DNA of 64,000 nt from Verrucomicrobiota bacterium JB023 (GTDB lineage: Bacteria > Verrucomicrobiota > Verrucomicrobiia > Verrucomicrobiales > Akkermansiaceae): contig JAUTCR010000017.1 of NCBI GenBank assembly GCA_030673895.1, forward strand, positions 1 to 64,000, given 5' to 3'. Under the pieces are notes generated by a model, which saw nothing but the letters and a program-made list of their open reading frames with translations, was not told where the DNA came from and did not search any database. A program made the position numbers and the translations under genes. Shown one piece after another: positions 10,168 to 55,917 of this stretch (position 1 is the stretch's first letter; each line of letters begins with the position of its first letter).

Positions 10168-11541
10168 TCAATTCGGGTAAGCCACAACGCGAAGGAACTG
10201 GCTTTCGTCGGAGGCGATGTCCTCGCTGGTGGTCACGCTCATCAGCGTAACCTCGTTCACGATCGAGTAGCTGACCTGCACACCCTCGACGAGCACGACC
10301 GGGTCGCTACTGCCGACCACTTCAAGCAGCTCGACCCAAGAGCCATTCTCAAGGGTCGGGCTCCCCTCCACTACCAGCCGGACTCCGTCGGCTCCCCCCT
10401 CGAAGGGGAGTCTCACGGCGAGGCGGTCGCCAAGAATTTCACTGCCCAACAGACCGCGCTCGGCCACCGTGGGATTCGTCCCCGCCGCGTACTCGATCAG
10501 ATTGGCCAAGCCATCTTGATCGAAGTCAAACGCATCTGCGGCGACTCCCTCGTTCGCTGTCGAGCCAAAGTTCGCCAAGCGCCAGGCATCGAGGGGATCC
10601 TCAGTCTCCCCAGCAATGACAGACCATCCAATGTCCTCGAGCGCAGCCACTTCCACCGTCGTTACCTCGAAGCGCCTCTTGCCATTGGTAAAGTTTGCGA
10701 TCGGCTCCATCAGCAGATCCTGGGGCTCTCCTTCACCCACCGTGCCCACATAGACTGGGTCTCCGGCGGGAAAGATGGGGGCTTGGTATTCGGCATCCTT
10801 CCAATGGCTATCCGAGGTCGAGACCATGCTCAGCGAGGTGACTTGTGTCCCATTGGCCTCATTGTAGGCAGCCGCTGCTGCCGCCCCATTGAACGCCGTC
10901 GAGGATTCCAGATCTTCCCAATCGTCCCAATTCGTCGACAGACCAAGGACGTGACCGATCTCATGGAGGGCGATGGAGTAAAAGTCGAGATCCCCGTTCG
11001 CAGCCGCGCTTTCCAGATCGAAGTGCCAATTCCGGTCGGTATCGAAGGTCACAACCCCGCCCCAGACGGGAAGGGTGCCAAAGCCAACGTTGAAGCCGCG
11101 GTTATGAGGCCCCGATGGATCATCAAAGACAGAGGTGTAGTTCAGCCCCGTGCCCGTGCCGCCAAGACCGGCACTGGTGATATTCCGGCCGCCAGCGTAG
11201 ATCACCAGCGTATCCGCCGGGATGGACCACGGTCCGCGATACTCATCCGCCTCACGATTGGAGGCCAGCCGGTCACTTGCCGCAGAAGCCGCCGCACTGA
11301 TTTGATAAGACGAACCGGTGCCGGGATGCGTGAAGCTGATGCGGATATCCTGATTATTGTCCTCGAAGGTGGCTGGGAGAAGCTCCTGATCAATGATCGC
11401 GCTCCAACGGGCAGCAGCTGCCTCCATCGCGTCGCGGCTACCCGGAGCATCAAAGAAGCCATTGGTGTCGTAACGGTAATCAATCTCGATGGTGAGAGCC
11501 GACAGGCTTGCCGGAAAAAGACAAAGGGGAAGAAGTCTCAT
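10168..11541 (-). CDS. Secreted zinc-metallopeptidase-like protein with a calcium-type and FYxL-like C-terminal tail
   Basis: A 457-aa protein with a short signal peptide (LLPLCLFPASLSA). The catalytic region carries ALHEIGHVLGLSTNW, with His193, Glu194 and His197 as the usual HExxH. The metzincin third ligand would be expected at residue 203, where there is a Thr, so zinc binding must use another residue or the enzyme may be weak or inactive. Some PEP-CTERM-type bacterial metalloproteases show similar HEIGHxLG motifs. Residues about 325-360 (DAWRLANFGS, then DFDQDGLANLIEYAAGTNP) are a calcium-binding-type motif common in this phylum. The protein ends ESQFLRVVAYPN, close to the 'FYxL' tail of other secreted proteins here. 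It converges with the GH2 gene and is divergent from the cytochrome gene. Confidence 0.7.
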   Translation of the reverse strand: MRLLPLCLFPASLSALTIEIDYRYDTNGFFDAPGSRDAMEAAAARWSAIIDQELLPATFEDNNQDIRISFTHPGTGSSYQISAAASAASDRLASNREADEYRGPWSIPADTLVIYAGGRNITSAGLGGTGTGLNYTSVFDDPSGPHNRGFNVGFGTLPVWGGVVTFDTDRNWHFDLESAAANGDLDFYSIALHEIGHVLGLSTNWDDWEDLESSTAFNGAAAAAAYNEANGTQVTSLSMVSTSDSHWKDAEYQAPIFPAGDPVYVGTVGEGEPQDLLMEPIANFTNGKRRFEVTTVEVAALEDIGWSVIAGETEDPLDAWRLANFGSTANEGVAADAFDFDQDGLANLIEYAAGTNPTVAERGLLGSEILGDRLAVRLPFEGGADGVRLVVEGSPTLENGSWVELLEVVGSSDPVVLVEGVQVSYSIVNEVTLMSVTTSEDIASDESQFLRVVAYPN

Positions 11542-25474: not shown

Positions 25475-28400
25475 ATGAAAACAAACCTTCTCAACGCTTT
25501 GGTCAGCATCGGCTTCATCACCGGAGCCGCTGCCGCTCCCTCAGTCGAACTGCCTGCCGAGTGGGCCGTTCCTCTCGAGACCGCAGACGGCTTCGCCCTT
25601 GTGGACAAGGCCACGGGCCAGACCCGAATCATGATTCACAAACCAAACGGCAACCTGGTGGAAGCCGGACCCTTGGTCACGAATCTAACCGACGTGAGCG
25701 GCCTCACCTCCGGCTGGGCCACGGCAACGCAGGAGAAGGTTGTGCTATCCTCCGCCTCGAACAATCGCCTCGCCTTCGTGCCGATTGATGCGTCGGCCTC
25801 GTCTCTCTATCAGCCACCCAAGGCCGGGCCGCAGATGGCCCTTCCTCTTCGCGAGAACCCCGGCGACCCCGATGCTCTGCTCATTCACCATCTCTATGGC
25901 GATACTGCTGGCGAGGCCATGGAGCTCATCGAGACACCCGATGGTTCGCCCGTTCCCCTTGATGATTACGATAACAACTACGGGCCCTTCTCTTCCCTCC
26001 AGCCGGTCGTTAATACCTCCACCGGTGACCTCATGGCGATCGGCATTTGGCATCACTTCTCGCCACCCCGGCTGACGGAATTCTACCGCTCCGGCGACAC
26101 CATCTTCCGCTCGATCAAGCCACAGACCGTCTCCTCACAAGCCACCCTCGCATCCGGCATCATCGGGAACGATGGCCGCACCTGCACCATCGCCTTCGTC
26201 CCCGGAGAGGAAAAGGTCCACATCTACACGCACGGCTTCGGCGGCTTCTCTGCCGGCATCGCGACCTCCAATGCCCTGCCCTTCCCTGTGGGGTCGATCA
26301 TCACGGTCGGCACCTCCATTCCCAACGCTCCTCACGGAGCTATCTTCATTGCCGAAGACGGCTCCAGTGGTGTCTATGGCCAAGTCATCGGAGGCACGAC
26401 GATCAACGTCATCTCAACCTTCACGCCCTCCGGAGGGCAAGCGCTTGCCGGCATCCTCCCGGTACCGAATCTTGGCCTGACGGTGCTGGAGGGCTCGCCC
26501 CTCGACCGCTCCGCCAGCGACTGGCGTCACCTCCAGAACAATGGGCTGGGATGGCAAACCGTGGCGAAAGACTCCCTCTCTCCCTGGTTGCCCGCCTCCG
26601 CCAGTTTCGCCACCCTGTTTTGGTACGATAGCACCCCTCTGGTCGATCCTTATGCCCGCCTGCTCCAGCTTGACATCGTTCCGGACTGGACAACGCAGGG
26701 AGGAGCCATCCCGGTCTCTCTACAAAGAGAAACCTATGGGGGCATCGCGCAGGGACTCGACAATCCCGTGGCCATCACCCCCACCGCACCTGCCGGCGCC
26801 ACTTATGTGATGTCCAGCCAGTATGGTGAGAACGCCTCGGTCTCAGCCCTCTCCGACAATCTCACTCTCTCCACACCCTCCGTCTCCATCTTACCCGCCT
26901 CCGATACCTATAGTAGCTCCGTCACAGTCAATGCGCTTTATGATGAGGAGACGGTCCAGGTCTTCTATCGTGACGCGACCAATGGCGGCACTTGGAGCTT
27001 GTTCGACGAGCCCTTCACGGTGGGCTACCCCACCGAGTATGTCTTCTATGCCCAGGATATCGCGAGTGGCTCCACCGGCCCTATCATCTCCCGCTCCTAC
27101 GATTTCTCCGTCGACTTGAACGAGATCGACAGCGACGGAGACGGTGTGCCCGACTATGTGGAGATCGAGAAAGGGCTCGACCCCTCCGCCGGCCCCGATA
27201 CCGACTTCGACTTTCAATCCGATCTCGAAGAACTCTTGGAAGGCACGCTTGCCGACGACCACACCAGCACTATCCCGGAGAGCGCTCGCAACCCCCGCTT
27301 TATCGGGCAAGGCTTCTACCTCTACGCGCAAGCCTTCAATCACACCACCGGCCAAGCGACTCCCTTTGATGACGGAGGCACCCCTGTCGATCCGAGTGAA
27401 ATGGATGAGTCCGTCGTCGCCGGCCAGCGCGAGGACGACCGCCCCGGCGTCGTCTTGAGCACGTCCGACATGGCCGGACTACTCCTTGCCACTGGCGAAG
27501 TCGCCCCCATCACGGAAGCCCCCCTTGGCGGGCAGTACGGTGCCCGCATTGAGGTCAACAATCTCATCGCCGAGCGAGAGTGGCTCATCCTCTCCAGCCC
27601 GGACAACTTCACCCTGGGCACCGGCGTGAGCCCCTTGCCCAATGGCCGGGAAACCATCCGCGTGCTCCAGCGCCCGTCCTTCGAGCTTCCCACCGTCACT
27701 TACAGCCCGAGCGGCACCAATCGCGCGGGCGATGCCGCTCAATGGCTCGCCGCCGCCGCCACGGCGTGGAGCAACTTCCAACCCATCTCCGCACTCACTC
27801 GCATGGAGCCCGAAGACATCGCCATCGCCGTGCTGGCCGAGCAAGCGATCTTCGATTCCTTGGAAAGCCTTCCGAATGCCCTCCAGAGCCAGCTCGGCGT
27901 CCCCGCTTCCGTCGAAGACTTCACCCTCTTCCCCTTCCGCGATCCGGCGCTCACCCCCCTGTCGCGCGACATGATTGAAACCCTTCTCGCCAATGGCTGC
28001 GACTTTTCCGCCCTCATTGAGCTACTCGATAGCGATGCCCGAGCCTCCACGGACATCGTCAGTATGGCGAATTCCATCTACGCGCGCCACGTCGCTGTCT
28101 CCGCCAGCAATCCCGGCATGTCTCTGCCCTTGGACGCATTGCGCTCCTTACTGCGTGATGGCGCCATCACCGACCCCGCATCCACCGTCGCGCTGACCTA
28201 CGATGAGAACGGTGACATCACCTCCTCCACCACACGCGCCAATCCCTACCAGACAATCACCAACGCTGAGATCAATGCCACCCGCACGGCCATGCTGGAC
28301 ATCCTTGCCGATGTGGCCTCGACCAAGCGTCCGACCGAAACCTGGACCATCGAGATTCAGCCCTCCACCACTGCTGGCCACTCCTACAACTACAGCCGCA

Positions 28401-29029
28401 CGTCTAACAACAACCTCGTCTGGCTGGTTGATTCCTTCGGCGAGCGCTTCATCCTCGAACAAGGCCTTGGTCTCAACCTCGGCACCCTGTTCACCGTTAC
28501 CGGTTACACCGATGTGACCGCCCAACCAGGCTTCGACACCATGGAAATTCTTTCCGTCGACATGGTGGTCATCCCGGCCGCGTCGGATTCGGACAGTAAT
28601 GGCAACCTCCTTGATGACGAGTGGGAGCTCTTCTTCTTTGGTAGCCTGGGAGCCGTGGATGCCTTCGACCTGCATCCCACCTCCGGCCACAGCTACCTGC
28701 AGTATCACTTGGCCGGGGCAGATCCCCGGGCCGGCGATCTGGATGAAGATGACGTCATCCTGGCTCCTGCCAATCCGACCATCGAGTGGGACGAGGGTGC
28801 CGGTGCCTACATCATTTGCTGGGACTTTCCCGACGATTATGTCGATGCCTTTGAATTTGCGGTGATTTCGTCCACTGATTTGGGAGAAAGCGACCCCTTC
28901 GATGTCTCGGCCAATGCTGGCTCGGTCTATCAAATCGAGCCCGGCCGCTACGGCATCCAGGTCGCTATCGCCGAGTCGGAGCTTCCCGCGAATTTCTTCC
29001 AGATCCAGATGTCTCTGGGAAATCCGTGA
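25475..29029 (+). CDS. Giant exported protein with thrombospondin-3-type calcium motif and shared C-terminal tail
   Basis: A 1184-aa protein with a signal peptide (LLNALVSIGFITGAAAA). The first 450 residues are beta-rich, possibly propeller-like, and unassigned. At about 545-590 there is a thrombospondin type-3/calcium repeat (EIDSDGDGVPDYVEIEKGLD). A helical middle part follows. Near the C-terminus come SDSNGNLLDDEWELFFFGS and a segment ending LPANFFQIQMSLGNP, matching the arrangement of other secreted proteins in this window. It is the last gene of the three-gene unit and converges on the TPM gene with only six bases between the stops. The function is unknown; a surface or matrix role is likely. 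Confidence 0.82.
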   Translation: MKTNLLNALVSIGFITGAAAAPSVELPAEWAVPLETADGFALVDKATGQTRIMIHKPNGNLVEAGPLVTNLTDVSGLTSGWATATQEKVVLSSASNNRLAFVPIDASASSLYQPPKAGPQMALPLRENPGDPDALLIHHLYGDTAGEAMELIETPDGSPVPLDDYDNNYGPFSSLQPVVNTSTGDLMAIGIWHHFSPPRLTEFYRSGDTIFRSIKPQTVSSQATLASGIIGNDGRTCTIAFVPGEEKVHIYTHGFGGFSAGIATSNALPFPVGSIITVGTSIPNAPHGAIFIAEDGSSGVYGQVIGGTTINVISTFTPSGGQALAGILPVPNLGLTVLEGSPLDRSASDWRHLQNNGLGWQTVAKDSLSPWLPASASFATLFWYDSTPLVDPYARLLQLDIVPDWTTQGGAIPVSLQRETYGGIAQGLDNPVAITPTAPAGATYVMSSQYGENASVSALSDNLTLSTPSVSILPASDTYSSSVTVNALYDEETVQVFYRDATNGGTWSLFDEPFTVGYPTEYVFYAQDIASGSTGPIISRSYDFSVDLNEIDSDGDGVPDYVEIEKGLDPSAGPDTDFDFQSDLEELLEGTLADDHTSTIPESARNPRFIGQGFYLYAQAFNHTTGQATPFDDGGTPVDPSEMDESVVAGQREDDRPGVVLSTSDMAGLLLATGEVAPITEAPLGGQYGARIEVNNLIAEREWLILSSPDNFTLGTGVSPLPNGRETIRVLQRPSFELPTVTYSPSGTNRAGDAAQWLAAAATAWSNFQPISALTRMEPEDIAIAVLAEQAIFDSLESLPNALQSQLGVPASVEDFTLFPFRDPALTPLSRDMIETLLANGCDFSALIELLDSDARASTDIVSMANSIYARHVAVSASNPGMSLPLDALRSLLRDGAITDPASTVALTYDENGDITSSTTRANPYQTITNAEINATRTAMLDILADVASTKRPTETWTIEIQPSTTAGHSYNYSRTSNNNLVWLVDSFGERFILEQGLGLNLGTLFTVTGYTDVTAQPGFDTMEILSVDMVVIPAASDSDSNGNLLDDEWELFFFGSLGAVDAFDLHPTSGHSYLQYHLAGADPRAGDLDEDDVILAPANPTIEWDEGAGAYIICWDFPDDYVDAFEFAVISSTDLGESDPFDVSANAGSVYQIEPGRYGIQVAIAESELPANFFQIQMSLGNP

Positions 29030-36184: not shown

Positions 36185-39100
36185 CTAGGGCTGGACGAGC
36201 TGATAGAACCCCGTGGGCGAGTCCGCCCGATCCTCATCCGTGACCACCTCGCTCCCACTGCCCAGGGTCAAGGTCTCCACCGAAAGCCAGCTGCCCTCAG
36301 CCAAGTCCGGCGACCACTCCAACCGGACCAAGGCTCCTTCGGGCCCCGTGATGGAAAGCTGGGGCGCGCCCACTCCGGTGAATCCTTGGAGAGAAACGAC
36401 GAGAGGTCTCGTATCAACTGTCGAGGTACCATCGTAGGCGAAGTCACCATTCCCTTCGCCCACGCCAGCAAGGACATTACCTCCACCATCCTGAATGGAG
36501 TCGTCATCAATGAGGCTGAAGTAGGTTGGCACTCCGCTCACCTTGACCAACCAGTTTGTCCCCTGACGCTCAGTAGAGAGAATCTCCAGCTCACCATCTG
36601 CATCCAGGGCGAGGAAGTCATCGGCTCTCACCCCCGATACGGCTTCGTCAAAGCGAACAACATAGGAGGTGACAACGCCATTACTGCCCGCGAGGTCGAG
36701 AGCGATATCCTGCACCTCGGCAGGGTCGGTATCGCCCACATATTCATAGACCGCGATGAAGCGCTTGTTCTGATTGTTATCCACCTCGAGAGTCCGGCTG
36801 TCCTCCGTCCCCTCGGTCGACGGACTCTTCAGGTAATCACCAAGGGAATTGGTGTAGCCCTCACTCTCGTGACGAATTCGTCCTCCGGTCTGGGAGATCC
36901 AATGCGAGAAACGAAATCCGTTAGGCTGCTCATCATCGACGGTTAGAATCTCGCCATAGAATTCCTGCGGACGAATCTCAAACTGTCCCGAGGAAAAAGA
37001 ACGGGTCACCCAACCAATGCCATCCCGTCGAAGCCAAGCCTCATTCGGGGCTTCCCCATTGGGCAGATCGAAGTAGAAGCGGGGCAGAATCTCCAGTGGA
37101 TTCCCCTCCGTATCCTGCACTTGAATCTCGGTCTCCGGCACACCGGCGGATTGGAAGTAATCAATCTCAGCACAGAGCCTCAGGTTCTCGATGGTCACCC
37201 CGAGGTCACCCTGAGCGACGCCACCTTCCCATTTCGGACTCGGTGGCAAGACCTTGATCTTGAGATCCGCCACCGCACCGGGTCGGGAGAAGCGCTGGAT
37301 ATCAAGCCGACCATCATCACCTAACAGCGCAGTGAGCAGAGACTGGCTGGCATAGCTGGGAGGATTGGGATCGACCTCTCCCGTTTTCAGATCCAGGTCG
37401 AAAACCCACTTGATGGGATTGTTCTCATCGCTCTCGTTGACATAATGATTGAAGACGTAGCTACGCCCGTTCTTCGTGATTATGGAGCGGCCGGAGTGGA
37501 TGACTTGAATTTCCAAAATCGAACCATCCGCCAAATCTTCCGCGCTTGCGGGTGAGCCATCAATGGTCAGGGAGAAGTCGAGATTCTCCAGAGAAAGCGA
37601 ACGGATGCGCTGCATCTCCCGACCGACGTCGAGCTTGCCTGCAGTCTTCAAATTGACTGATATCTGCCGCTGGTTTCCGTTCAGGGTCGCCAGCTCCTCT
37701 TCATCGAGATCGAGTGGACGGCAAGCTTGTTCCAACTCGGTGCCAAGAGGTCCGTAACTTGTTAGAATTCTCTCAGAGAGGTTGGAAAGCTCTGTCTGGA
37801 AGACGCCCTTGAGCTTCTCGAAGCCCGTCGCATTGATGATGTAGGGTGTGCCTCCGTCCGTGGCGTCATCATCAGCGTTCGCGTTCGGATCCTCGGCGGC
37901 CTCAATGATATCGGTCATCTTTTTGAAGACGGCCACCGCATCGAAGGCCTCGCTTCCACTATGTCGGTAGGACTCGACCATCCGGTACTCGTAGGCCTTT
38001 GCGAGGAGATAGAACTGCTTCCGGAGGCGGTCCTTGGCTCGCCGCTCCATCTCACGCACCACGGAGAGCGCCTGGGGATCGAGGATGCTACCCAGCTCGG
38101 TGGCATTCTGGTCCAGAAGCTCGATAGCGAGAGCGTTCTTCATCACCAGGCCGGGGATTTCGCGCAACTCATTCTGAGCGGCAAGCAGCCGCGCCGTGAA
38201 GGACTGCTTCTCGACCATCAATTCCCCAATCTCTGTCGCAATACGGGCGAACTGAGGATCGCTCGCCTTCAGTTGCTCCAGCTTGGCCGCGATTTCGTCC
38301 GAAGGAGCCTCATTGCTCGCTAGAAAGCCTTGCAAGCCATCGGAGGCTTGCTGGAGACCGCTGAGCCCGGTCTCAATGTTGTTCGCTTGCGAGTGGTAGG
38401 CTTCTTGCTTGGTTTCGTGTTCGCCAAGAGGTCCATAAGTCGGCGGGTTGATTTTCTCGTTAAGCTCTTCGGCATCCTCGCGCAGAGAACTCACTTTGTA
38501 GGTGCCGACGATGGTGGCGGCCTCCACCACGGAGGTGAGGGGATCTTGCTCGTCGATGCGGGAGACGAGGTCCAGCCCGGCACCGGCCGCTGCCAAGGCC
38601 GGTTGGGCGATGGGGACGACCTGCATGATGGCACCCAGCGTACGGGCGGTCTTCTTCCAAGCCTCTTTCTGGTCCTCATTCTCTTGCAGATCCTCCGCCC
38701 GTTGCAGTAGCCCTGCCTCCACTTCCAGCAGACGCTCCTGCTGCACCTCGATGTTGGCCTGGAGCTCCAGCTCGGTCTGCTCGAGCCGCGCAATCTCTCC
38801 GATATCACCGGTTTCCTCATTGCCAAGCAAGAACTTCATCCGGTCTTGGAGGAGGATATTTTCCTTGGTGACCTGATTCTCGGCCTCAACCAAAGCCTCC
38901 TGTTGCGCATCAAGATACTCAGAACTTCGATTAATCCAGTAGCTCACGTAGAGCGCATCCATCGCTTGTTCGATCAAATCATCGGTGAGAAGAAACGTCG
39001 TCTCAAAAGACAGCAGGGGCACCCAACCCGCCGGATTGCCATAGTAGTCCAACTTGTTCGCCAGTCGGGCGACGTGGCGATTGACATCGTTTTCCAACTC

Positions 39101-42100
39101 GGCGAACTCAAGGGCGGCATCCGAAGTATCGGCCAAATCGGGCAAGGTGAAATCGCCTAACAACTGCAGGTACCGTTGATAGGAGAGAAACTCATGCTCA
39201 GCCTCGGTGAGGAAGCCGAGGAAGTAGAGGTCCTTGGCATAAGCCAAGGTGGAGCGGACGGTGATGGGATGGAGCCAACAGTAGTCGACTGGAAGCCCTC
39301 CATCCTGAAGCAAGACAGCAGGAAGAGTCGCCTTGCCCGCGTCTCCATTGCCCCCGAGGCTTTCGCTAAAGAGGGACATCCCTTCGTAGGGAGTGGAGAG
39401 TTGGCCCGCCAGCCCGCCTTCACCCACCCCGGAGTCCCCTCCATTGAGGACAAAGCGGGGTAATTCCGCCGGCACCCCGGTAATCTCCTGAGCATGAATC
39501 GTGATGTCACCCCCATCGTAGCCATGCCCATTCGGGTTCGTCACCGGTGTGGTGATGAGCTGGCCGACTTCATTGGGGAAGTTCACTGTTTTAGCGTGGA
39601 TGGTCACGCGGGTCCCTGGGAGATGGAGGGCGGATTCGATAGTGACGGTCTCCGCATAGATCTTCAGCTCCTCTACTGCGGAATTGCCGGTCTCTTCCTC
39701 GGCGTCATAAGCAATCTCGGAATAGAAGCGGTCCGCGCCCGATTGTGAATCCGGGTGAACAAGCCGAATCTCCTTTCCTGACAAGGTGACGATGCGGGTG
39801 TTGGAATTGTCCGGATGGCGGTTCATCACCGCCTCGCCCTTCACCTGATGAATCTGATTGTAGTCAAACCCAGTAGGGTCGGGCAGACTCTCCGGCTGGG
39901 GTTGCAGAGCGAGAATTGTCAGCTCATCGGACAAATCCGGTTCGGGGGTGATGGTCACCAATTGGCTCGTTCCTCCGAAGGAGAATTCGACTTCGAAGGC
40001 TTCGCGGTCCGATTCACTAGGCTCATAGTAGAACCAGCCTCCCGCCGTCATGAAAAGAGAGCCTGAGGGAGAACCGGACACCAGTGACACGGTCGTTCCC
40101 GGAGCAAAGGTCATCCCCAGGACATCGCCGCTCCCGACCGTCTGGGGAGGGATGGAACCAATCACGCCTTCTGCTGCCTCATCGAAAGTGACCGTCACCG
40201 TCGTTGTCACGCCTCCCGGCATGACATCGACGAGCACCTCGCGGGGAGGCAGCCAACCAGCCACGGTGGGAAAGGAAAGCTCCTGCAAGCCCAGGGAAAC
40301 ATTGGCCACGGGGGTGCCGCTCTCAAAAACCCCTCCGAGGGAACTCACCTGCCAGCGAGCCCCGGCCGCCACGGCCTCGGCAGGCTCGATGAACACCTGC
40401 AATTCTCCCGTGGAGATGAAGGCGAGCGGGTCTCCGCTTTCCGGATAGCCGGGGATTTCAAAAGCGACTTCAACAGCCTCGGGAATCTCTGTCGCGACCG
40501 AGTAACCGGAGGTTCGCAAATAGGCGACTTCGCTCGTTCCAATCACCGGAGTGGCCGAAGCCTCCAACAGAAGCTGTCCGTTCTGGAACCCCCAATTGAC
40601 GGTCGTAACCGAGGATGGAATAAGGGTCGCGTAAACTCGATGAGCCTGCAGCTCTGTATGGCTGGTGGCTCCCCCACCGCCAAAAGTGGCCTGTGTGGCC
40701 AAGCCACCATCAATCAATCCCGAGAACCAACCCTCGTCACCTGCTCCCAGGACAGGCGCGGTCAGATCGCTTGCCGTCAGATTAACAAGGAAGAGCCAGT
40801 CATGGCCCGGATACGTCACGCCCTGGAAGGTGGCCATCCGCTGGATGCCCAACACGGCATCAGCAGGAGCGGCCGCTTTCATCGCCGGGAAGTCCGCCGC
40901 ATTATAGCCATTGAGGAGGCCGCCAACCTCGGCTCCTCCTTCGAGATCCGCCAGATAAGGAGTCTCGATATAGGGACTCACGTGGGGATTAACCGAGACG
41001 AACCCATTGAAGGTCTCCTGCTGGCTTCCGTAATCCAAGCCCGCATAACCATCCGGAGAACCTTCCGAGAGGATCAATCTCCCCGTCCCGCCACCAGCCG
41101 ATCCACCCGTCAGCATCAAACGGGAACCTGCCGTGACAACCTCCGGAGCCTCGAACTTGAAGGTGCCTCCTGCGCCCGCTCCCCCTTCGCCCCCAAAGCC
41201 ACCATTCCCCCCGGCTCCGCCATCTCCCCCAGTACCGCCCCGACCACCGTTGCCACCTTGGTCACCAGTGGAGCCCCCGATTCCAGCGGCTCCACCGCTC
41301 CCTCCTTGCCCGAAATTCGCCGAAACACGGTCGATCCCGCTCCCGCCATCACCTCCCATGGAGATGAAGGTTCCCCGCGCTTCCAGGGTGCGAAACGCGG
41401 TCAGGCTCACTGCACCGCCGCCAGCACCACCGAGCCCGCCGTCGGTGCCATCTCCACCGTCACCCCCGCTGCCACCTTTTCCTCCGCTCCCTCCGGCCGC
41501 GCCTCCGTCCCCATTCTGACCAATACTGCGGGCCTCGCCACCGCCACCACCGCCGCCGCCACCGCCTTGGCCCATCGAGCCACCGCCGCCGCCGCTGCCA
41601 CCATAACCGCCGGAGCCTCCCGCTCCCCCGGATATCTGCCGACCCACTCCCGTATTGAGACCGCCCGCGCCAATCCCACCACCGCCACCGGCTCCGCCGG
41701 GTCCCCCGTCATCGCCATCACCTCCATTGGAGCCATTGCTGCCATTTTGGCCTCCGGGATAAAAGTAATCACCTCCCGCGCCCGCACCGCCCCCATTCGT
41801 GGTCTCCCGATAATAACCTGTCGCACCTTGAGCTCCCGGCGAGCTAGCCGAGGCGTCCCCACCTCCACTGGCGAGTCCAAACCCTAACATCCCGTCTCCT
41901 CCCGCCGCACCAAAGCCGCCCAAGGAACCAATATTTCCGATTCCTGTTTTGTATCCTGTCCCGCCAAAGACGCCTCGCTTCCCGTCGGGGCTGGAGAACG
42001 TGCCCCCGCTCCCTCCAGAACCACCAACTCCTCCATAGGAGGCGGAGTTCGAGCCTCCCGCTCCCCCGGCTCCTCCTCCACCGCCACTCCCTCCCCAGCC

Positions 42101-43483
42101 ACCACCAGGCCCGGGGGTGATGCCATCAGCCGAGGCATCAAGGATAGCCCCCTCAGGAATAACCAGGTCCCGCGCGGAAACGAGAGAGATAGGATAAGCT
42201 CCTCGGCAAATCACCCGGTCAGCCTCCCCGAGGATAAAATCCTGGCCGAAGGTGAACTGCATGATCCCATCGCGAAGCGCGACCTCGTAGGGCATCTCTT
42301 CCCGAAAAACTCCCTCCGCATCGACAAAGATTCCATCACCCTCGTCATCCACCGATATCGTGCGGGCAGTGGAATCAATGACTACGGTAGTCGGCCGAAC
42401 CTCCCCGGTAAAAAAGGCAAAGCTAAAGACGTCCTCATCTGCGATAGCCTGTTGGAAATCATCGTTCGTATCGTAGCTCTCGATATTCCACCGCTTGTTC
42501 TCTTCATCCCACTCGGCCGCGACCCGGTTGTCGAAATTCCGACTCTCGCCCCCTTCCGAACTGACGAGGAGAGTTCCCGTCTCCGCAGTGTGCTTGATGG
42601 TCTTCGCCGCGTCCTGATAGATTTCGAGATGCCAGATCTCGGAGTCGGTCGCGACCGAGGTCTTGCTCAGAGTGTAGTAGCCGCCCGCCACCTCGGAGGT
42701 GAGATTTCCCTTCACCCGCCCCATCGCTGCCAGGCCCTTGGTGCCGACGGCATTAGCAGGCAGATAGACGAAGGAGAAGGGATCGCGCTCATAGAGGTAG
42801 CGCGGATCATGGATGAAGATATCAAATGCACCATCGGCCCGGTCCCGGGAGAGAACGTGATTGCCCTCATTCTTCGCATGATTGACGAGCAAGATGCCAT
42901 CCGCCGAGGAAGCTCCCAGCGACGTCAAATCGACGATTCCCTGTCCTCCCAAATCTTGAATTTGCGAGCCCATCTCGATTCCCTCGCTTCCGGTCAAGAT
43001 GGAGAGCGCTCCGCCATTTACGGCATTGGTCGTAATCGCTCCCAGCCAATCCTGATAAGGAAAGCTGGCGAAGGAGAGGGAGGCATTCTTCTCTCCATTG
43101 ACCATGTTGTGGGTCGAAAAGACGCAGCGTTCGCCGACACCGTAAGAGGCAGTCATCGCCCCCGAATTCAAGGTCGCAATCGAACTGATGGGCACCCCGG
43201 TGCTGATGTCATCCTGGTATGGAAAATTGAGGAAGTAGTCCGCCCGCCCGCTCGCGCCGCGAGAGACCCTGACGCCTTGGCTGGTGACCGGGCTGAGGGT
43301 GAGGGACACCGAGGAAGAGTGATTGGATGCCGCGTCGTGCTCCTCGACGAGCAGGGTTCCCGCTATCGTCTCATCTTGCGCCAGAGCCAAATTCCCCGTG
43401 CTCCAGCCGAGGAGCATGGCAAGGTAGTAGGTTGGGAGTCCCCAGAGATTCCCTGCAGTAAAGAAGGCGCGTTGTTTGTTCAT
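36185..43483 (-). CDS. Giant exported protein: glycine-rich domain, PEGA-like domain, coiled coil and FYQL tail
   Basis: A 2432-aa protein with a signal peptide ending near ALAQ (about residue 36). Residues 40-450 are an unassigned beta-rich domain. Residues about 455-775 are glycine-rich, with runs such as GGSGGSGGTF and GGAGGGGGIGAGG. At about 1018-1090 there is a PEGA-like beta-domain (LQVFIEPAEAVAAGARWQV). Residues about 1510-1780 are a long coiled coil (QTELELQANIEVQQERLLEV). The end carries an Ig-like segment (VVRFDEAVSGVRADDF) and the tail WSPDLAEGSW to SPTGFYQLVQP. No enzyme motif was seen. It lies 253 bases downstream of the ECF sigma gene on the same strand, which suggests joint regulation. 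It is probably a surface or matrix structural protein. Confidence 0.85.
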   Translation of the reverse strand: MNKQRAFFTAGNLWGLPTYYLAMLLGWSTGNLALAQDETIAGTLLVEEHDAASNHSSSVSLTLSPVTSQGVRVSRGASGRADYFLNFPYQDDISTGVPISSIATLNSGAMTASYGVGERCVFSTHNMVNGEKNASLSFASFPYQDWLGAITTNAVNGGALSILTGSEGIEMGSQIQDLGGQGIVDLTSLGASSADGILLVNHAKNEGNHVLSRDRADGAFDIFIHDPRYLYERDPFSFVYLPANAVGTKGLAAMGRVKGNLTSEVAGGYYTLSKTSVATDSEIWHLEIYQDAAKTIKHTAETGTLLVSSEGGESRNFDNRVAAEWDEENKRWNIESYDTNDDFQQAIADEDVFSFAFFTGEVRPTTVVIDSTARTISVDDEGDGIFVDAEGVFREEMPYEVALRDGIMQFTFGQDFILGEADRVICRGAYPISLVSARDLVIPEGAILDASADGITPGPGGGWGGSGGGGGAGGAGGSNSASYGGVGGSGGSGGTFSSPDGKRGVFGGTGYKTGIGNIGSLGGFGAAGGDGMLGFGLASGGGDASASSPGAQGATGYYRETTNGGGAGAGGDYFYPGGQNGSNGSNGGDGDDGGPGGAGGGGGIGAGGLNTGVGRQISGGAGGSGGYGGSGGGGGSMGQGGGGGGGGGGEARSIGQNGDGGAAGGSGGKGGSGGDGGDGTDGGLGGAGGGAVSLTAFRTLEARGTFISMGGDGGSGIDRVSANFGQGGSGGAAGIGGSTGDQGGNGGRGGTGGDGGAGGNGGFGGEGGAGAGGTFKFEAPEVVTAGSRLMLTGGSAGGGTGRLILSEGSPDGYAGLDYGSQQETFNGFVSVNPHVSPYIETPYLADLEGGAEVGGLLNGYNAADFPAMKAAAPADAVLGIQRMATFQGVTYPGHDWLFLVNLTASDLTAPVLGAGDEGWFSGLIDGGLATQATFGGGGATSHTELQAHRVYATLIPSSVTTVNWGFQNGQLLLEASATPVIGTSEVAYLRTSGYSVATEIPEAVEVAFEIPGYPESGDPLAFISTGELQVFIEPAEAVAAGARWQVSSLGGVFESGTPVANVSLGLQELSFPTVAGWLPPREVLVDVMPGGVTTTVTVTFDEAAEGVIGSIPPQTVGSGDVLGMTFAPGTTVSLVSGSPSGSLFMTAGGWFYYEPSESDREAFEVEFSFGGTSQLVTITPEPDLSDELTILALQPQPESLPDPTGFDYNQIHQVKGEAVMNRHPDNSNTRIVTLSGKEIRLVHPDSQSGADRFYSEIAYDAEEETGNSAVEELKIYAETVTIESALHLPGTRVTIHAKTVNFPNEVGQLITTPVTNPNGHGYDGGDITIHAQEITGVPAELPRFVLNGGDSGVGEGGLAGQLSTPYEGMSLFSESLGGNGDAGKATLPAVLLQDGGLPVDYCWLHPITVRSTLAYAKDLYFLGFLTEAEHEFLSYQRYLQLLGDFTLPDLADTSDAALEFAELENDVNRHVARLANKLDYYGNPAGWVPLLSFETTFLLTDDLIEQAMDALYVSYWINRSSEYLDAQQEALVEAENQVTKENILLQDRMKFLLGNEETGDIGEIARLEQTELELQANIEVQQERLLEVEAGLLQRAEDLQENEDQKEAWKKTARTLGAIMQVVPIAQPALAAAGAGLDLVSRIDEQDPLTSVVEAATIVGTYKVSSLREDAEELNEKINPPTYGPLGEHETKQEAYHSQANNIETGLSGLQQASDGLQGFLASNEAPSDEIAAKLEQLKASDPQFARIATEIGELMVEKQSFTARLLAAQNELREIPGLVMKNALAIELLDQNATELGSILDPQALSVVREMERRAKDRLRKQFYLLAKAYEYRMVESYRHSGSEAFDAVAVFKKMTDIIEAAEDPNANADDDATDGGTPYIINATGFEKLKGVFQTELSNLSERILTSYGPLGTELEQACRPLDLDEEELATLNGNQRQISVNLKTAGKLDVGREMQRIRSLSLENLDFSLTIDGSPASAEDLADGSILEIQVIHSGRSIITKNGRSYVFNHYVNESDENNPIKWVFDLDLKTGEVDPNPPSYASQSLLTALLGDDGRLDIQRFSRPGAVADLKIKVLPPSPKWEGGVAQGDLGVTIENLRLCAEIDYFQSAGVPETEIQVQDTEGNPLEILPRFYFDLPNGEAPNEAWLRRDGIGWVTRSFSSGQFEIRPQEFYGEILTVDDEQPNGFRFSHWISQTGGRIRHESEGYTNSLGDYLKSPSTEGTEDSRTLEVDNNQNKRFIAVYEYVGDTDPAEVQDIALDLAGSNGVVTSYVVRFDEAVSGVRADDFLALDADGELEILSTERQGTNWLVKVSGVPTYFSLIDDDSIQDGGGNVLAGVGEGNGDFAYDGTSTVDTRPLVVSLQGFTGVGAPQLSITGPEGALVRLEWSPDLAEGSWLSVETLTLGSGSEVVTDEDRADSPTGFYQLVQP
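41160..42120 (-). repeat. Glycine-rich low-complexity domain inside the 2432-aa protein
   Basis: About 320 codons in which glycine is the main residue, in irregular GG-S-GG, GG-A-GG and GG-D-GG units with a few aromatic residues between. It resembles the PGRS type of glycine-rich domain in composition. The DNA is correspondingly rich in CC-N-CC triplets on the plus strand and may be prone to slippage. Confidence 0.85.
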
Positions 43484-51723: not shown

Positions 51724-52707
51724 TCACCGCAGGATGGCGTCATCCCGCCATTTCATCCAGACATGAGGGGTGGAGAAGACCGCCCCGTCAGTCACCTCGA
51801 TGGTGCCATCGATCAGGATGACGTCATTGGATGAGGTCGACTTCGAGACCGCATTCTCAAGCGTCTTGAGACGCTGAGCATAGGTCCTGCCAGAAAGTTG
51901 AACTCCGAAGATGCTGTCCGCGCCGTCATCGGCGAGGAAGAAGCCTTCACCCGAGGCCTGGGGATCGCGCTCGTCATTCATCACCTCGATCATCTCCTGC
52001 CGCTGCTGCCAGACGAAGCGGTCCTGCGGTTGATGGTAGGACATCACGTTGAATATCAGGTTGTCCCGCGTCTCTTGGGTGGAGCCGGGATATTGGGCAT
52101 TGATATCGGCCGCCGAGGCATCGGCATCATCGGGCAAGGTCTCCGAGAGCCCGTCGCCATCCGCCCAGTCGTCCGCATTGCCATCGCCGTCGCCACTGTG
52201 CGTGTGGCTCAGATTGAAGAAGTGCCCAATCTCATGGAGGATGAGCTCCTCGTAAGCACCAGCCCCCACCGTGATGGCGCTGCGCCCACCTGTGGGCCGC
52301 GAGCAGTAGCCTGAGCGGGTGTCATTGATGTAGATATTGATGGAGTCGTCATGCCATTTCCAAGTGGTCTTGTCGTCCAGAGCGGCATCTTCGATGGCAT
52401 TCCGAGTCGCAGAGGACCGGGCATCCATCGTATAATAAGGGTCTGCCTGCCCGGAGATGGTGTAGACGGTATCCTCCCGGAGAAAGAAGCGGAAGGGGTA
52501 GCGCTTCTCCCTCATCACGCTGTTCATCCAGTCCACATTATCGCGGACGGCGGTCTCGCTATTGAGATTCACCCCGGTGGAGCCGATGGTATTGGTATTA
52601 CTCGGCCAACTGCCATTCGAGCTGAGAATGGCCTTAATCGAGAGCCGGACCTGAATCTCCGCCGCAGCTGGAGCCACCAGGAGAAGGGAGAGAATGAATC
52701 GTTTCAT
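51724..52707 (-). CDS. Secreted pappalysin-like metzincin metalloprotease
   Basis: A 327-aa protein with a signal peptide (RFILSLLLVAPAAA). The zinc site HEIGHFFNLSHTH has all three His of the metzincin HExxHxxNxxH pattern. The Met-turn follows (FNVMSYHQP), as in the M43/pappalysin group. About 60 residues after the Met-turn form a short tail without a recognised sorting motif. Such enzymes cleave extracellular proteins. ATG 52707 was preferred to an upstream GTG because AAAGG lies seven bases before it and the signal peptide starts there. It follows the beta-repeat protein gene by 23 bases and is probably co-transcribed with it. Confidence 0.85.
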   Translation of the reverse strand: MKRFILSLLLVAPAAAEIQVRLSIKAILSSNGSWPSNTNTIGSTGVNLNSETAVRDNVDWMNSVMREKRYPFRFFLREDTVYTISGQADPYYTMDARSSATRNAIEDAALDDKTTWKWHDDSINIYINDTRSGYCSRPTGGRSAITVGAGAYEELILHEIGHFFNLSHTHSGDGDGNADDWADGDGLSETLPDDADASAADINAQYPGSTQETRDNLIFNVMSYHQPQDRFVWQQRQEMIEVMNDERDPQASGEGFFLADDGADSIFGVQLSGRTYAQRLKTLENAVSKSTSSNDVILIDGTIEVTDGAVFSTPHVWMKWRDDAILR

Positions 52708-52730
52708 AATATAACCTTTCACATTCGGAC

Positions 52731-54830: not shown

Positions 54831-55002
54831 CGGTTTGGTCTGGTTGAAGAAAGATCGCTTTCAGAGAAGATAACCGTAGATGATTGAAACATTTTCCCAC
54901 AAGATTTGAAGTTCATTCATTGTCCGCCCTCAATGGGCCCGATGGCCCCGAGAAAAGAGTTTCTTGAGAATGGCACCGGTTTCGATACGGTAGAAGAAGT
55001 TG

Positions 55003-55917
55003 ATGAAGTCGACCCCACTCATTTATCTTTCTCTTCTCACCGCAATACCCCTTGCCCATGGCGAACGGGTTAGCACGAATTATACTCTCTCCCCGGAGAT
55101 CCTCGACGCGGGAGGAGGGCAATCGAGCAGCAGTGATTACACGAATGACCTCTCGACTGGAGGTCAGGCGACGGGCATTTCATCATCTGTCAATTACACG
55201 GACCGCGGAGGCTATACCGGCCAGTTGTTCGATGTCGTCAGTCTGGCAATCACCGCGACTCCTTCCTCGGTCAACGAGGGGGAGACCACCCAGCTCGAGG
55301 GCCAGGCCCTCTTGGACGATGGCACCACGCTCGACGCCAATCAGAGCGACATCATCTGGAGCCTGGTGGGTGCGAACAATCCGCTTGAACAAGTCGATGA
55401 GAATGGGCTCGCCACGGCTGGCCCGGTCTATGAGAGCACGCCAGCGACCGTGTCCGGGAGCCTGGGCGATATCACCGGGGAGCTGATGCTGACCATTCTG
55501 AATAGCAATACCGACGACTTCGGCGATTATGCGGGAGACGGGCTCGATGACTTCTGGCAGGTCGAGAACTTCGGACCGCCGCCCAATAGCGAGGCCGCGC
55601 CGGAGGAGAACCCGGACAATGACTCGGCATCTAACGAGTGGGAATACCTGGCGGGGACCAATCCGCTCGATAGCTCGGATTTCTTCGCTCTCACTCTCCT
55701 CGCGAAGACCGGATCCACCGCCCAGCTAGCCCTGAGCCAAGTCATTCCCAATCGCACTTATTCACTCATGGCCGGGACCGATCTTGAGAACCTGAATGAT
55801 GAAGTCACCCAATTCACCGTAGCGAGCGAGGCCACCGACCATCTCGTGGAAGATACCAGTGCCAATGAGGCGGCGAAGTTCTATCGCATTGAGATCTCCA
55901 TTCCCTCGGACGAGTAA
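55003..55917 (+). CDS. Small secreted protein with Ig-like domain and FYRI tail
   Basis: A 304-aa protein with a signal peptide (STPLIYLSLLTAIPLAHG). An N-terminal segment (NYTLSPEILDAGGGQSSSSD) resembles openings of verrucomicrobial exported proteins. A Big2-like domain follows (ITATPSSVNEGETTQLEGQA). Residues about 172-220 carry the calcium-type arrangement DGLDDFWQVENFG to EYLAGTNPLDSSD. The protein ends NEAAKFYRIEISIPSDE. This end matches the tail of the metallopeptidase at 10168 and of the giant protein at 25475. It is divergent from the beta-repeat gene at 54830. Confidence 0.75.
   Translation: MKSTPLIYLSLLTAIPLAHGERVSTNYTLSPEILDAGGGQSSSSDYTNDLSTGGQATGISSSVNYTDRGGYTGQLFDVVSLAITATPSSVNEGETTQLEGQALLDDGTTLDANQSDIIWSLVGANNPLEQVDENGLATAGPVYESTPATVSGSLGDITGELMLTILNSNTDDFGDYAGDGLDDFWQVENFGPPPNSEAAPEENPDNDSASNEWEYLAGTNPLDSSDFFALTLLAKTGSTAQLALSQVIPNRTYSLMAGTDLENLNDEVTQFTVASEATDHLVEDTSANEAAKFYRIEISIPSDE

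Follow-up and report, generated by a model that had tools for sequence, protein, structure and literature searches.

How large enzymes get outside the cell is little understood in Verrucomicrobiota, a phylum that counts Akkermansia, a gut symbiont, and major degraders of marine polysaccharides among its members. The 64,000-nucleotide stretch of the genome of Verrucomicrobiota bacterium JB023 analysed here (the window) gives this question a concrete form, namely whether several of its exported proteins, otherwise different, end in one common C-terminal tail, and what such a tail would do. The original prediction had listed four open reading frames, three with a full tail and one, of 2432 aa, with its last part only. 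The four frames were present as described, that at 10168-11541 being on the minus strand. For scoring we made a profile HMM of 37 tails that lie outside the window in this genome, so that no window protein contributed to it.

The first tail-bearing protein, or host (10168..11541, minus strand), is a secreted matrixin-like (M10) zinc metalloprotease of 457 aa with a signal peptide (hydrophobic N-terminus MRLLPLCLFPASLSA; Pfam Peptidase_M10, 5e-9). Its complete tail (10171..10596, minus strand) consists of a helix, a loop with the EF-hand/TSP3-like calcium-loop motif DFDQDGLANLIE (10492..10527, minus strand) and a beta half that ends in FLRVVAYPN before the stop, and it scored 62.4 bits (E 1e-19 over the 33 window genes). 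The second host (55000..55917, plus strand, start probably at 55003) is an exported protein of 305 aa with unassigned function and a signal-like N-terminus (MKSTPLIYLSLLTAIPLAHG). Here the complete tail (55540..55914, plus strand), ending in FYRIEISIPSDE before the stop, scored 50.3 bits (E 6e-16 over the same genes). In both cases none of 2000 shuffled sequences reached the score. The third host is a glycine-rich giant exported protein of 2432 aa (36185..43483, minus strand) in which no Pfam or NCBIfam domain was matched. It scored 6.8 bits as a whole protein and 15 bits over its last 75 residues (0/2000 shuffles), along profile positions 66-120, confirming that only the beta half is found there (36188..36409, minus strand; RLEWSPDLAEGSWL...FYQLVQP before the stop), without the W-helix or calcium-loop half. 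The remaining claimed tail (28613..29026, plus strand; WELFFFGS...AGADP...FFQIQMSLGNP), at the end of the protein encoded at 25475-29029 (plus strand), agrees in layout only and lacks statistical support, with 2.9 bits, 31 of 2000 shuffles scoring equal or higher and no match at E<1 in the genome-wide profile search; it could be a very divergent copy. A TSP3-like motif inside the same protein, at residues 550-575, is unrelated. No tail scored in the rest of the 33 window genes. A second, unrelated secreted metalloprotease, M43-like (51724-52722, minus strand; Pfam 9e-6), has no tail. From the leave-out scores and the shuffles, therefore, the layout is far beyond chance in two proteins; a third has half of it and for the fourth it is unproven, so that the earlier observation was right in kind and overstated in number. 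Pairwise BLAST of the window tails aligned mainly the first half (5e-7 and 43% over 40 residues for two of them), the beta half being strongly divergent.

The tail spans ~130 residues and is made of a W-containing helix, an EF-hand/TSP3-like loop (DxDGDGxxNLxEYAxGxxP) and a beta half ending in FxRLxV. Among 49 tails the conserved order is a D-x-D-G-D-G-x-x-N-L-x-E-Y/F loop, G-x-D/N-P and a divergent beta part with S-x-D-L-x-x-W and F-x-R-L-x-V, the latter placed 3-7 residues before the stop in most of them; the W of the first helix was kept in 35 of the 40 in which the position is present. AlphaFold gave three short helices followed by eight strands for the tail of the first host (pLDDT 61) and a pLDDT of 75 for an orthologous tail, the models overall having three short helices and 6-8 strands, and the beta half is predicted to be an Ig-like beta sandwich. 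With these models Foldseek found no significant fold match (best E 6e-3), the weak neighbours being mostly Ig/FN3/CBM-like. When PDB sequences were searched with the tail profile only EF-hand loops matched, weakly, including calmodulin. Of 23 tails, five had a loop matched by Pfam TSP3_bac (PF18884) at E<=10, the best at 1.6e-6; the tail of the first host is not among them. Dockerin, whose type I has two repeats versus the single loop of the tail, had no match in this set at the same cut-off. The beta half is covered by no Pfam or NCBIfam model, without any Pfam match above threshold in the 23 tails.

Judging from its motif the loop would bind calcium, although not universally. In most Akkermansia tails it reads PDACPAGDGITNLMKYATGLDPxKPCGSV, so that the calcium ligands are lost and a Cys (in PCGSV) is conserved. 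Several of these tails (L204-L213) have a second Cys, in DACPAGDG, suggesting that calcium is replaced by a disulphide or a modification.

A genome-wide search uncovered a large family. With a profile of 23 tails, 106 matches at E<1 were obtained across the 4.03 Mb, and they fall in 78 distinct frames; about 55-60 tails are encoded, one per protein. The hosts were examined in the genome stretches flanking these matches. A match was counted as complete when it runs to the end of the beta half in a host of known end (n=54); 52 of these lie within 10 residues of the C-terminus, where about 1.3 would be expected under uniform placement. The seed consisted of terminal tails but the search was local, so internal copies were also found: complete copies are followed by 489 aa in L100 and by 139 aa in L131, and in L098 further sequence follows a complete tail, the host end not being reached. 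In L100 (G000:C58:116741-122545, minus strand) the sequence after the internal tail is an in-frame sulfatase (RPNIVLFYTDDQ), which looks like a fusion of two genes of the tail family.

Signal peptides, called by home-made rules and not by SignalP, were found in 38 of 55 hosts versus 23 of 110 control frames with the strict rule (p 2e-9), and in 47 of 55 versus 33 of 110 with the relaxed one (p 8e-12). Hosts are thus strongly enriched in signal peptides; several of the eight that fail the relaxed rule have plausible hydrophobic N-termini by eye. Their cargo includes enzymes (sulfatase, subtilase, matrixin, sialic-acid esterase, phosphodiesterase, PHA depolymerase) as well as adhesin-like Calx-beta, MAM and SdrD (SdrD-B) proteins; F5/8, LamG and further domains also occur, and the tail is often preceded by TSP3, BACON, PA14 or CBM modules. 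The top host families did not include the choice-of-anchor domains of NCBIfam. Within this genome the tails are about 20-35% identical to the window tail and form long branches in the tree. No published description of the tail was found in literature searches. We have hardly any doubt that it is a homologous, terminal, export-linked module, as the suggestion of a common C-terminal module on different exported cargoes had it.

As to its role, we put the chances at about even that, after Sec export, the tail serves for surface sorting or retention. Sorting or anchoring is the best single reading because of the terminal position, the single copy per host, the indifference to cargo, the homogenisation by lineage and the link to exosortase described below. 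Large Verrucomicrobiota proteins with one tail each would be exported by Sec, after which recognition of the folded tail, either in the periplasm or at the outer surface, would let unrelated enzymes and adhesins reach, or stay on, the same extracellular layer. This route would run parallel to that of PEP-CTERM and exosortase, the latter serving small proteins, both probably within the same exopolysaccharide-rich envelope. The targeting or anchoring of proteins by the tail, like the details of its fold, is what we infer from sequences and models. Against sorting stand the complete copies that are not terminal, the divergence of the tails within their own genome, which exceeds that of many recognition signals, the loss of the calcium ligands in most Akkermansia tails and the fact that no receptor or processing site was found for the tail.

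The membrane protein co-occurring with the tails, anticipated by the original prediction, turned out to be exosortase. We compared 289 Verrucomicrobiota genomes, of which 225 had some tail match and 108 a strong one (E<=1e-12), with a profile that is biased toward lineages near the window genome. Exosortase (PF09721) is found in 107 of the 108 strong-tail genomes versus 108 of the 181 others (Fisher 1e-16, post hoc and without phylogenetic correction). The single exception, G113, was discarded as a tail-bearing genome without exosortase: by gene order the expected locus falls in a 40 kb stretch, from about 1.736 to 1.776 Mb, that is masked as N (G113:C1:1736000-1776000; L247-L249), and absence calls there are therefore unsafe. 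The gene expected there is Amuc_1470, the published EpsH/exosortase of A. muciniphila (PMC3048395). In six exosortase-negative genomes (G253, G209, G227, G285, G071 and G239) the weak matches are only TSP3 repeats and never include the beta half, and a second model found no exosortase in them either. Among Akkermansia, exosortase is present in 11 of 11 tail-positive genomes (10 by PF09721, G113 from the published gene) versus 5 of 11 tail-negative ones. A pattern search with a narrower alignment returned 8 loci, all of them in Verrucomicrobiota.

Another possible partner was the pilus-like family of Amuc_1099 (NF042425), in which the EF-loop motif is also found; it was rejected, its presence not tracking the tails. 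It scores above the cut-off in 150 of the 289 genomes with a patchy distribution and is absent above the cut-off in the tail-rich G140, G085, G258 and G088. Loci of this family with an EF-hand/TSP3-like loop include L116 (G000:C35:31327-32268) and, in Akkermansia, L155, L156 and L164. Amuc_1099 is an inner-membrane pilus-like protein, and its loop resembles the tail's first half, with local profile matches at E about 1e-5 to 1e-8.

The genome of the window itself encodes 45 PEP-CTERM frames and 2 exosortases. Hosts of the tail are large (median 951 aa) versus a median of 261 aa for PEP-CTERM proteins. One cargo domain is found directly before the tail in L095 and before PEP-CTERM in L202 (and L183), and a second one before the tail in L063 and before PEP-CTERM in L174; these common domains have no NCBIfam name. 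Alternative anchors would be expected to exchange cargo in this way, although domain shuffling may give the same picture. For eight of the 45 PEP-CTERM genes a match to the tail profile is found on the same strand at no more than 2.5 kb (2.0 expected; 1 of 2000 shuffles reached eight), a post hoc statistic picked after seeing the list, in which some of the matches are weak or internal. Small PEP-CTERM genes are located immediately or closely downstream of tail genes, on the same strand, in C23, C20, C7, C59 and C64 of G000 (L075, L103, L133, L089 and L117). Adjacent tail and PEP-CTERM genes are perhaps functional pairs. Exosortase cannot cut the tail in the known way, because the tail has no PEP and nearly always no membrane segment: the last 60 residues of 49 tails contained no PEP motif, and only one of the 49 had a possible membrane-spanning segment (a 17-mer above 1.6 in hydropathy). 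The link is more likely to rest on an exopolysaccharide layer or an export route in common. The most specific version, in which the tail would be a second, folded, non-PEP sorting signal of an exosortase/exopolysaccharide envelope, displaying large enzymes and adhesins across the phylum, interchangeable with PEP-CTERM and having its own receptor, we consider rather unlikely.

According to the main rival to the sorting reading, the tail is a generic C-terminal domain: an Ig-like module, stabilised by calcium, for binding substrate or glycan or for shielding the C-terminus from proteolysis, which spread by shuffling among secreted proteins with no sorting machinery behind it. We rate this rival a serious candidate with a probability somewhat below one half. 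The weak Ig/FN3/CBM-like fold neighbours, the few internal copies and the high divergence of the tails agree with it, as does their frequent position after TSP3, BACON, PA14 and CBM modules, which are themselves spacer or binding modules. Yet a single copy in a nearly absolute terminal position would be unusual for such a domain, as binding modules repeat and sit anywhere; the hosts (proteases, lipid esterases, sulfatases, adhesins) have no common class of substrate, and strong tails are found only where exosortase is present. In a third reading, which we hold improbable, the tail would direct translocation through an outer-membrane export machine of its own, type IX-like in function and unrelated to type IX. 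Many unrelated Sec substrates sharing a beta-sandwich signal at the C-terminus are indeed the type IX design, and the T9SS translocon family SprA_N (PF14349) had no match in the 289 Verrucomicrobiota genomes (a search without positive control), so that any machine would probably be a different one. But no such machine was identified, and the one pilus/secretin-locus family examined, NF042425, does not track the tails.

Within the same family, one Akkermansia-like genus has 2-8 true tails in some genomes and none in others. Eight hosts are found in G082, including a sulfatase-PA14-BACON protein and its paralogue, a BNR sialidase-BACON, a GH18-LamG-BACON and a raffinose-synthase-like protein. 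Their N-terminal parts are unrelated, with the exception of the paralogue pair and small BACON regions, and their tails are 41-66% identical to each other, one more diverged copy being at about 30%. All ten Akkermansia tails in the tree form one clade (support 90/79), nine of them with support 100/99. Of the two tail proteins in G113, one is homologous to the sulfatase-BACON protein and the other is a GH18-BACON protein. The BACON proteins named in the A. muciniphila genome paper are exactly two, the sulfatase Amuc_0953 and the glycosyl hydrolase Amuc_2164; the paper describes this domain as C-terminally placed in them, the downstream tail not being noted (PMC3048395). By domain match, and not by locus tags, the two A. 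muciniphila tail enzymes are probably these proteins. The undescribed tail marks dozens of exported enzymes per genome, and its presence on two mucus-degrading enzymes of A. muciniphila makes the question testable in an intensely studied organism. With a tail profile many hypothetical surface proteins could be recognised as well, and the exosortase link is a concrete lead to a receptor or matrix.

Several known systems resemble the tail in part. MYXO-CTERM and GlyGly-CTERM are likewise many-to-one C-terminal tags on exported proteins; they are short and tripartite, with a membrane segment and a basic end, whereas the tail is a folded domain without these elements (PMC11980579, PMC3237569). The DxDxDGxxNxxE loop is common to TSP3_bac (PF18884) and to EF-hand/dockerin-type calcium loops, but in the tail there is only one, fused to a beta sandwich at the C-terminus, and its ligands are lost in most Akkermansia copies. 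The type IX CTD (Por_Secre_tail, PF18962, TIGR04183) is a C-terminal folded beta-sandwich on diverse secreted proteins, a design shared with the tail. In contrast to it, the tail has no match to the type IX sorting models: Por_Secre_tail, TIGR04183, TIGR04131 and any other Pfam or NCBIfam sorting model, PF07589 included, were without a match among 23 tails at E<=10, bearing out the view that the tail differs from both PEP-CTERM and the known type IX signals. The closest parallel in organisation is the PEP-CTERM/exosortase system (PF07589, TIGR02595; PF09721), also C-terminal, with many copies per genome on signal-peptide proteins of unrelated cargo and with lineage-specific expansion, from which the tail differs in being ~130 aa long, folded, free of the PEP motif and carried by large hosts.
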